DNA from: Oscillospiraceae bacterium
GTDB taxonomy: Bacteria; Bacillota; Clostridia; Oscillospirales; Ruminococcaceae
Length of the DNA: 33,412 bases
Reading direction: 5' to 3'
Assembly (NCBI GenBank): GCA_017847995.1
Contig: JAGAPB010000077.1
Location: forward strand, 1 to 33,412
The position numbers and the translations under genes are program-made. Positions 23,360 through 26,226 of the stretch are shown in pieces. The notes under the pieces are model-generated. The model was not told where the DNA came from. It saw only the letters and a list, made by a program, of their open reading frames with translations, and did not search any database. Within the stretch, counting starts at the first letter, position 1. Each line of letters opens with the position of its first letter.

Positions 23360-23947
23360 TCAGTCCTGGTCGCGCAGATTAATGGTGCTGGTTTGATCGT
23401 CCATAGAATCGACAATGGCCAAAGATTCCAGATGATACCCCATATTGCGGATGACCTTGCCGCCGATCTGGAAACCCTTTTCCACGGCGATGCCAATGCC
23501 TTCCACCTTTGCGCCGGCCGATTCGGCAATGGAGATGAGCCCCTGCAGGGCGCAGCCGTTGGCCAGAAAGTCGTCGATGATGAGAACATGGTCCCCCTCG
23601 TTCAGATAGCGCTTGGAAACCACCACCTGGTTTACATTTTTGTGGGTGAAGGATTCCACCGTGGCAACGTACATGTCGCCGTCGATGTTGATGCTCTTGG
23701 ACTTTTTGGCAAACACCACGGGAACATTGTTAAAATAGCGGGCAGCCGAGCAGGCGATGGCGATGCCCGAAGCTTCGATGGTCAAAATTTTGGTGATGGT
23801 TTTGTCGGCAAAGCGTCTTTTAAATTCCTTGCCCATTTCGTCCAGCAGGGCAACGTCCATCTGGTGGTTCAAAAAGCTGTCCACCTTGAGCACATTGCCG
23901 GGCTTGACCACGCCGTCTTTCAGAATTCTTTCTTCCAAACAATTCAT
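23360..23947 (-). CDS. xpt: Xanthine phosphoribosyltransferase
   Basis: Xpt converts xanthine and PRPP to XMP in purine salvage. Length is 195 residues, matching the B. subtilis enzyme (194). Seen: [29 protein letters not shown]-type N terminus (NHQMD), [15 protein letters not shown], and the PRPP-binding motif [17 protein letters not shown] with its paired aspartates. GGAGG is 7 bases before the ATG. In many Bacillota xpt sits behind a purine riboswitch with pbuX; here the leader is only about 20 bases and no pbuX follows, so it must be controlled otherwise. Confidence 0.95.
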
Positions 23948-24065: not shown

Positions 24066-24584
24066 TTAGGCGGTGGCGTGGGCATTTTCGGCCAGGCGGA
24101 TGATGCGTGCCAGAGGCAGGATCAGCGCACCGGCGAAAAAATTGCTGACCCCGTGGATGAGGTCAAAGGGCAGACCGGCGGCGATCCAGGCGAGCGTGGC
24201 GGTAAAATTGAACCCAAACAGCAGTGCCTGAGCCGGGGCGTACAAAACGCCGTACAAAAAGCCATGGGCGGCACAGACTGCCATGTAAACGATGGGCTGA
24301 AACTTTGCAGGGATGCTGCGTGGCAGCAGCATGACGGCCGCCCAAAGCACGGTCCAGATGTAAAGATAGGGGACCCACCAGGTGGCAAAGCCGCCGAACA
24401 GCCCGGTGATGAGGACAAAGGTGTAGATGGGATAGAGGGCTTTTTTGCGGTAGACCAGGGTGAGGGCGATGATGAAGGTGCCCAGCAGATGGATGTTGGG
24501 GAAAAGCTCCATCAGCATTTTGGAGGCGTACATCAAAGCGCCCAGCATACCAAAAACGGCCATCTCTTTGATGGTAAGTTTCAT
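24066..24584 (-). CDS. ECF transporter S component, probable corrinoid uptake
   Basis: This is a 172-residue membrane protein. Seen: five to six hydrophobic segments (AVFGMLGALMYASKMLMEL, LLGTFIIALTLVY, PIYTFVLITGLFGGF, YLYIWTVLWAAVMLL, and a C-terminal GALILPLARII), short loops, and a WW pair in the middle; this is the build of an ECF S component. The ORF is open upstream to 24845, but the ATG at 24584 overlaps nothing, starts one base after the upstream stop and gives MKLTIKEMAVFG, typical of S proteins. It follows the DUF4430 lipoprotein gene in a transcript headed by a cobalamin riboswitch. That context, not the protein itself, points to cobalamin or a precursor as the cargo. Confidence 0.83.
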   Translation of the reverse strand: MKLTIKEMAVFGMLGALMYASKMLMELFPNIHLLGTFIIALTLVYRKKALYPIYTFVLITGLFGGFATWWVPYLYIWTVLWAAVMLLPRSIPAKFQPIVYMAVCAAHGFLYGVLYAPAQALLFGFNFTATLAWIAAGLPFDLIHGVSNFFAGALILPLARIIRLAENAHATA

Positions 24585-24585
24585 G

Positions 24586-25023
24586 TTATTTTTCCACCCG
24601 CAGGGCGTAGGCGGCGCCTTCCTCAATTTCGGTGACATCCACGCCCGACATGGCGTATTCGCCGTTGATGTAGAAGGCCCAGTAGGTACCGTTGAGGTCA
24701 TAGTCGGCAATGATGCCGTTGACCGATTTGACATACAGGCCATAGTCACCCTCTTCCCCTTCGATGAGTTCCAGTTCCTGCAGGGCGGCGCCCACGGTGG
24801 TTTGGTCGGTGCTGATGTCAAAGACGACCTCGCTGCCTTCGGCATCGGCTACGGTCAGTTCAAATTGGGTGGCCCCTTGGCCCAGGGCGCAATCTTCGGC
24901 ATAAAGAAGGGGGCGGGGGGTGTCATGAGATTTGCCGCATCCGGTTGCGCAAAGTGCCATGGCCGCAACAAGCACCAAACAAAGGATGAGCGACAACGGT
25001 TTTTGGATTCGTGTCATCTTCAT
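24586..25023 (-). CDS. DUF4430 lipoprotein, putative extracellular corrinoid-binding protein
   Basis: This 145-residue protein is predicted to be anchored outside the cell membrane. Seen: a signal segment with LSLILCLVLVAAMALC and lipobox ATGC with the lipid-bearing cysteine near residue 29; then a domain with TVGAALQELELIEGEEGDYGLYVKSVNG (in part), a YWAFYINGEYAMSGVD stretch and a closing YALRVEK. The xYWxFYINGExaxxGvd pattern is the DUF4430 signature. This fold is related to the cobalamin-covering C-terminal domain of transcobalamin and intrinsic factor. The ATG at 25023 has a GGAGA site. It is the first gene after a cobalamin riboswitch and overlaps almost onto an ECF S gene, so it may capture corrinoid and hand it to that transporter. 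Direct binding is inference. Confidence 0.87.
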   Translation of the reverse strand: MKMTRIQKPLSLILCLVLVAAMALCATGCGKSHDTPRPLLYAEDCALGQGATQFELTVADAEGSEVVFDISTDQTTVGAALQELELIEGEEGDYGLYVKSVNGIIADYDLNGTYWAFYINGEYAMSGVDVTEIEEGAAYALRVEK

Positions 25024-25093
25024 ACAAGATTCTCCTTTAAGATATTTTCCCCGGCACCGGCACTCGCGGTGGTTTGAGTAAGAGGGGTTGTGG

Positions 25094-25251
25094 CTGTACG
25101 GATATTTCGGCTTGGCAGGCTGGCAAACGGCCTTCTCAGGGCAATGCCCCAATGACCTTTCCCCGAATTGCGGCTTCGGGTAAGCTTGTCAGACAAAGTC
25201 TGCCTTACGGCGACGGGCTCGCGCAGGAATTGCACCTGCTTCCCCATACAG
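25094..25251 (-). promoter_or_regulatory. Cobalamin riboswitch
   Basis: On the minus strand the RNA begins with CTGTATGG, which pairs with CCGTACAG at its other end as an 8-bp P1 (one wobble; 25244-25251 with 25094-25101). Next comes GGGGAAGCAGGTGCAATTCC, then GCGCGAGCCCGTCGCCGTAA, the B12-box core found in this class. Near the 3' side GAAGGCCGTTTGCCAGCCTGCC resembles the conserved end region. The aptamer is ~158 bases, starts at the predicted transcription start and ends ~70 bases before the lipoprotein gene. No clear terminator follows it, so control may act on translation. Confidence 0.9.
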
Positions 25252-25256
25252 TAAAA

Positions 25257-25285
25257 ATTATAGTACGTTTTGCCCTGTGTTTCAA
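25257..25285 (-). promoter_or_regulatory. Promoter of the riboswitch transcript
   Basis: On the minus strand TTGAAA (25280-25285) and TATAAT (25257-25262) are 17 bases apart, placing the start at the first base of riboswitch helix P1. Confidence 0.8.
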
Positions 25286-25422: not shown

Positions 25423-26226
25423 ATGAATCACTTTCCCAAGGTAAGAAAGCCCATCATTGCACTGCTGCACCTCAATTCGCTGCCCGGCGACCCCTTTTAT
25501 AACGGGTGGAGCATGAAGGAGATCGTGGCACAGGCTGCCAAAGATCTGGACGCCCTGCAGAAGGGCGGGGTGGATGCCGTTTTGTTCACCAACGAATTCA
25601 GCATCCCCTATCAGAACAATGTGGACCATATTGCCACCGCCGCCATTGCCCGCATCATCGGCGAGCTGAAGCACGACATGTCGGTTTCTTACGGTGTGGG
25701 GCTGCTGCAGGACCCGGTGCACATCATCGACCTGGCCGTTGCCGTTGAAGCCGACTTTATCCGCGAACAGCTGACCGGCGCCTTTGTGGGCGAGGGGGGC
25801 ATCTTCCAGACCGACATTGCCGCCACCCTGCGGCGCAAGCAGGCCCTGGGCGCCCACGACCTGAAGATGTTCTACTTCCTGTTCAACGAAGCCGACAGCT
25901 ACCTTAACGACCGCGACTATAAAACCGTGGTGCGTTCCATGATCTTTAAGTGCAAGCCCGACGGCATCTGCGTGCCCGGCCTGCATGCCGGTGACGTGCC
26001 CGACACCCAGTTCCTGGCCGACATGAAGGCCGCCGCCAGGGGCGACACCGACATCTATTGCAACACCGGCTGCACCAAGGAAAACATTGTGCAGAAGCTG
26101 AATGCATCGGACGGCGCCTTTGTGGGCACCACCTTCAAGGTGGACGGCAGGTTTGAAAACTTCATTGACCCCGACCGTGTAAAGGAATTTATGGATGTGG
26201 TGCGGGACTACCGCAAAAACCTGTAA
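25423..26226 (+). CDS. BtpA/SgcQ family protein
   Basis: This is a 267-residue TIM-barrel protein of the BtpA/SgcQ family. BtpA was described as a photosystem I biogenesis factor in cyanobacteria; SgcQ is a putative sugar-metabolism enzyme. Function in non-photosynthetic clostridia is not known. Seen: KPIIALLHLNSLPGDP at the N terminus, GGVDAVLFTNEFSIPY, GVGLLQDP, FIREQLTGAFVGEGGIFQ, and the closing DGAFVGTTFKVDGRFENFIDPDRV, all typical of the family. The ORF is open to 25270, but the ATG at 25423 has GGAGG at 7 bases and gives the family N terminus. Divergent from the riboswitch transcript and ended by its own terminator, so a single-gene unit. Confidence 0.9.
   Translation: MNHFPKVRKPIIALLHLNSLPGDPFYNGWSMKEIVAQAAKDLDALQKGGVDAVLFTNEFSIPYQNNVDHIATAAIARIIGELKHDMSVSYGVGLLQDPVHIIDLAVAVEADFIREQLTGAFVGEGGIFQTDIAATLRRKQALGAHDLKMFYFLFNEADSYLNDRDYKTVVRSMIFKCKPDGICVPGLHAGDVPDTQFLADMKAAARGDTDIYCNTGCTKENIVQKLNASDGAFVGTTFKVDGRFENFIDPDRVKEFMDVVRDYRKNL

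Follow-up and report, generated by a model that had tools for sequence, protein, structure and literature searches.

A cobalamin riboswitch-controlled gene pair for a DUF4430 lipoprotein and a CbrT-type ECF S component in an Oscillospiraceae bacterium: a probable corrinoid uptake operon

Introduction

In ECF transporters, the task of binding the substrate normally falls to the membrane S component. One such component, CbrT, is said to have been named in the 2009 work of Rodionov. CbrT of Lactobacillus delbrueckii carries both cobalamin and cobinamide and binds and transports cobalamin without CbrS (PMC5997447). The cluster order in that organism is nrdJ-cbrS-cbrT-pduO, and cbrS is mentioned once in the CbrT paper, without description (PMC5997447). 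Since CbrT transports without it, this partner is an accessory, at least in vitro. For human transcobalamin, both CNCbl and cobinamide are bound by the beta domain in isolation, and the alpha and beta domains assemble in a Cbl-dependent manner (PMC5599065). In many gut bacteria, the B12 transport systems have not been identified (PMC6593275).

Here we describe a locus in a contig of an Oscillospiraceae bacterium. The window, which is the whole stretch of DNA that was analysed, is 33,412 nucleotides long. An earlier note, made from the sequence alone, had read this locus as a corrinoid capture and uptake system.

Results

The unit lies on the minus strand and runs from a promoter through a cobalamin riboswitch, a DUF4430 lipoprotein gene and an ECF S component gene to a terminator. 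The earlier note had placed all of these parts in one tight unit, and its coordinates proved right. A single base separates the lipoprotein stop codon from the start of the S component. The features are as follows:

25257 to 25285, minus strand: sigma-70-type promoter, TTGAAA-17-TATAAT (11 of 12 consensus matches)
25094 to 25251, minus strand: cobalamin riboswitch aptamer core, P1 to P1' (RF00174 and P1/P3 covariation)
25055 to 25071, minus strand: P13 hairpin CACCG-CGAGTGC-CGGTG, probable expression platform (loop conserved and stem covarying in relatives)
25031 to 25038, minus strand: ribosome binding site AAAGGAGA (from the sequence)
24586 to 25023, minus strand: DUF4430 lipoprotein, 145 aa, transcobalamin beta-domain-like and very probably CbrS by synteny (PF14478, haptocorrin profile match and fold)
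24066 to 24584, minus strand: ECF transporter S component, CbrT type by its profile match to 6fnp, 172 aa
24020 to 24060, minus strand: intrinsic terminator, 15-bp stem and T6 tract (from the sequence)

Directly past the terminator is a xanthine phosphoribosyltransferase gene (23360-23947, minus strand; TIGR01744) that gives no sign of belonging to the B12 unit. On the other side, a divergent gene (25424-26226, plus strand) resembles the BtpA/SgcQ family, as judged by reading.

The leader was accepted as a cobalamin riboswitch by a covariance search, in keeping with the complete aptamer proposed before. RF00174 matched at 25304-25080 on the minus strand and scored 40.8 bits, where the gathering score is 31.5 (E 3.7e-7). 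This envelope extends upstream of the -10 box and, thus, its 5' part is probably untranscribed. The 8-bp P1 (CTGTATGG/CCGTACAG, 25251-25244 paired with 25101-25094) begins 6 nt past the -10 box, which agrees with its expected place at the predicted transcript start. Across 15 homologous leaders, the pairing of P1, P3 and P13 is kept in 93.1% of cells and includes 49 double changes; in a control where the pairs were slid by 1-3 columns, 32-44% of cells paired. This covariation supports all three pairings. A -10-like box also occupies the same position in the 15 aligned leaders. In single-sequence folding, the folding energy of the leader was not better than that of shuffles (z 0.72). No terminator was found within the leader and, given this and the riboswitch class, control is likely at translation. 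On the same two grounds, cobalamin would be expected to lower expression.

The first gene encodes a signal peptide with the lipobox ATGC, and its product matches PF14478 (DUF4430) with E 8.5e-10 and 39.4 bits against a cut-off of 23.8, as expected for the DUF4430 lipoprotein named earlier. A profile built from 19 paired proteins was searched against the PDB. It matched 3u7z of R. gnavus (E 1e-29) and, weakly, the C-terminal part of haptocorrin 4kki (E 0.0012). Chains of TIP-alpha also came up in this search and were dismissed, as the matches were short and weak. The AlphaFold model of the lipoprotein (pLDDT 86.6) gave 19 PDB matches at E<0.001. Apart from 3u7z, all of them were beta domains of transcobalamin, haptocorrin and intrinsic factor, among them the human beta domain in isolation, both apo and with CNCbl. 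DUF4430 is the sole Pfam domain in the 145 residues and the N-terminal alpha/alpha barrel is absent. The suggested kinship to the cobalamin-covering domain of transcobalamin therefore stands for the beta domain, in both sequence and fold, and does not extend to the alpha barrel. With the beta domain only, the lipoprotein is a relative of that domain and not a transcobalamin itself. No paper was found on 3u7z, and a literature search of papers available without subscription found none that ties a bacterial DUF4430 protein to B12.

The S component has no family match in Pfam or NCBIfam. A single-sequence search of the PDB found 6fnp (ECF-CbrT) at E 9.5e-4, and a profile of 13 homologues matched 6fnp_A, the CbrT chain, at E 9.8e-19. 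This was the only PDB sequence up to E 10; RibU, ThiT, BioY, FolT and BtuM were all absent from the matches. Thus, the ECF S-type membrane protein recognised before groups with CbrT only, and of CbrT and BtuM, both proposed for comparison, just the former was matched. The AlphaFold model has six helices (pLDDT 83.9). Its fold search returned weak S-component matches (TM 0.56-0.67, E>1), the best being TmRibU with a TM of about 0.63. Since no fold match was significant, the assignment of this protein to the CbrT family is drawn from the sequence profile.

The pairing of the two genes was then surveyed in relatives and was found to be tight. Of 198 genomes of the family, 48 have the S component. 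Of the 30 family loci examined, 28 have DUF4430 directly upstream of the S gene, as do 78 of 80 loci from named genomes (Lachnospiraceae, Oscillospiraceae and others), where the two genes usually overlap or are a few bases apart. The same holds for 9 of the 10 best-scoring loci in the phylum. The 19 lower-scoring phylum loci, in which S is mostly longer or fused, have no DUF4430 within about 1.5 kb. The pair also occurs on plasmids of Lactobacillus, Enterococcus and Subdoligranulum. Among the B12-related neighbours of related pairs are nrdJ, an adenosyltransferase gene, a B12-dependent ribonucleotide reductase gene and queG; metH is a neighbour in one locus (L024, by reading).

A cobalamin or AdoCbl riboswitch exceeded the Rfam threshold at 16 of 29 related loci in one set and 8 of 16 in another, which leaves about half of them without one at this threshold. 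The aptamer core motif was present in 52 of 74 upstream regions, compared to 1 of 139 control windows and none of the 74 reverse complements. Every riboswitch that could be assigned to a DUF4430-S unit was of the cobalamin class. Riboswitches for FMN, TPP or other vitamins were found with none of the related DUF4430-S units, so that co-occurrence pointed to no rival regulon. One yjdF RNA was seen, beside a separate yjdF gene. At four loci, a cobalamin riboswitch follows a longer S gene that has no adjacent DUF4430, on the same strand (L158:3245-3430, L153:2970-3237, L159:2087-2360 and L144:3294-3495), suggesting that other CbrT-like variants also sit among B12-regulated genes.

The plasmid clusters were recovered with the CbrT sequence as query; a tblastn search of the plasmids with the DUF4430 query gave no match. 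A Lactobacillus intestinalis plasmid has the order nrdJ, DUF4430, S, adenosyltransferase. The match of this order to that of L. delbrueckii makes the DUF4430 protein very probably CbrS. Plasmids of L. plantarum and L. reuteri carry the same gene set, reordered or broken by an insertion sequence. Plasmid cargo for B12 import and use was thus seen in Lactobacillus, Lactiplantibacillus and Limosilactobacillus (L162, L163 and L167), and a transposase interrupts one of these clusters.

The genome that contains the window is a 1.66 Mb draft in 125 contigs that is 94.65% complete, and absences from it are provisional. It has three cobalamin riboswitches and BtuR. MetF and MetH were recognised by reading, and the B12-binding domain of MetH and a corrinoid protein were found. 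The metH frame has an in-frame TAG ahead of the B12-binding part (C82:15147-15149; L011:6148-6150, minus strand), which is a mutation or an assembly error. In this draft, CbiC was not found and PF01923 had no match. Neither did the FecCD/BtuC permease family (PF01032), consistent with the view that a BtuFCD route is missing. An EcfA-EcfA'-EcfT module is available to the S component: EcfT is encoded on contig C81 with two adjacent ABC ATPase reading frames, the EcfA genes.

A second DUF4430 lipoprotein is encoded on contig C34 in a cluster (L009:3991-14813) together with EcfT, an 881-aa EcfA-EcfA'-S fusion, a cohesin-domain protein, a URO-D methyltransferase, a corrinoid protein, PocR and RACo. 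The last part of the fusion matches a CbrT-like profile (7.9e-7), and its best Pfam label is the riboflavin S component family (5e-9). With this second corrinoid-linked ECF system, the genome has two DUF4430/ECF pairs tied to corrinoids, a strong contextual sign for the reading of the unit. Altogether, the organism looks like a B12 salvager whose recognised uptake routes are all of the ECF type. Elsewhere in the genome, tandem cobalamin riboswitches (89.5 and 48.3 bits; C60:654-1079, L004, minus strand) precede the gene for a secreted protein, which is truncated where the contig ends; this protein had no Pfam match and no convincing full-length homologue.

Discussion

The covariance search, the CbrT profile, the beta-domain kinship and the missing FecCD match agree with one another and support the original reading of the locus. 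That the unit transports B12 is very likely. We also consider it likely, with somewhat less assurance, that it is a riboswitch-controlled operon of the CbrS-CbrT kind for the uptake of B12 or other corrinoids, in which the lipoprotein captures and the S component imports. By analogy with the isolated human beta domain, the lipoprotein itself probably binds the corrinoid directly.

From the computed leader, protein families, pairing and genome context, we infer the following route. With little cobalamin in the cell, the leader would permit expression of the lipoprotein and the S component. The lipoprotein, tethered to the membrane, would bind the corrinoid outside it and then dock on the S component of CbrT type, similar to the way in which, in transcobalamin, the beta domain covers a B12 molecule already bound by the alpha domain. 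Next, the S component would join the shared EcfA-EcfA'-EcfT module, and ATP hydrolysis would power import. The most specific form of this proposal is that a stand-alone, transcobalamin-beta-like lipoprotein serves as a lid and handover subunit that assembles on the S component in a B12-dependent manner. We put this forward tentatively, with slightly more doubt than belief.

Another possible explanation, though an unlikely one, is that the pair prefers a corrinoid precursor or analogue, such as cobinamide or another cobamide, over cobalamin. This overlaps with the uptake operon favored here and differs in the preferred substrate. Cobinamide is accepted both by CbrT (PMC5997447) and by the transcobalamin beta domain (PMC5599065), which would suit such a preference, but the genome encodes cobalamin-using enzymes and BtuR.

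A little less probable still is that B12 enters through the S component acting as an ordinary CbrT and that the lipoprotein is a chaperone, scaffold or metal-binding protein of the transporter that does not bind corrinoids. CbrT of L. delbrueckii is functional without CbrS (PMC5997447) and, therefore, the lipoprotein is not strictly needed there, which counts against a role for it in uptake. The DUF4430 structure 3u7z was also deposited as a putative metal-binding protein. However, the only significant fold relatives of the lipoprotein outside DUF4430 are cobalamin-binding beta domains, one of which binds Cbl in isolation (PMC5599065), and the pairing of DUF4430 with B12 genes is very tight. 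For these reasons, we prefer a corrinoid-capturing lipoprotein that probably assists the S component, as a capture protein or as a lid. It is very improbable that the S component serves another vitamin's ECF system and is merely coupled to B12 status by the riboswitch: it lacks a Pfam S-component family and its model is closest to TmRibU, but its profile matches CbrT alone in the PDB up to E 10, and the riboswitches assigned to related units are cobalamin ones only.

The importer family, CbrT, was already known, and so, probably, was the name of the partner gene, cbrS. As a gene pair, the lipoprotein and S component are thus probably not new, given the synteny with cbrS-cbrT. What appears undescribed in the literature searched is the kinship of this partner to the transcobalamin beta domain, together with its conservation and riboswitch control across gut Clostridia. 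In Lachnospiraceae, Oscillospiraceae and related gut lineages, the pair occurs commonly and is a direct candidate for a B12 transporter. If the lipoprotein binds corrinoids, the widespread domain DUF4430 would have a function, ECF transporters would gain an extracellular capture subunit, and the human transcobalamin beta domain would be tied to bacterial B12 capture. If it acts as a lid, vertebrate B12 binders and bacterial uptake systems would have a corrinoid-covering domain in common.

Compared to known systems, the unit would resemble BtuFCD and BtuG/BtuB in function only, in that an extracytoplasmic protein binds B12 and supplies it to an importer in the membrane. The proteins are unrelated, and no BtuC-type permease turned up in this draft genome. 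RUMGNA_00854 (3U7Z) belongs to the same DUF4430 family (profile E 1e-29; TM 0.92 over the target), but was solved as an orphan with a putative metal-binding label. The beta domains of transcobalamin, haptocorrin and intrinsic factor (5NO0, 5NP4, 4KKI and 2PMV) share the fold and a detectable sequence similarity with the lipoprotein. In contrast to them, it is a stand-alone, membrane-tethered bacterial protein without the alpha/alpha barrel, and its partner would be an S component. The closest system is ECF-CbrT of L. delbrueckii (6FNP; PMC5997447). The pair in the window differs from it in being headed by a cobalamin riboswitch and lying outside any nrdJ cluster, and the single-sequence similarity of the two S components is low (E 9.5e-4). 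On the other hand, both belong to the same S family by profile (E 9.8e-19) and are solitary S components that use a general ECF module, and a DUF4430 gene takes the cbrS position on a related Lactobacillus plasmid and lies beside the S gene on two others.
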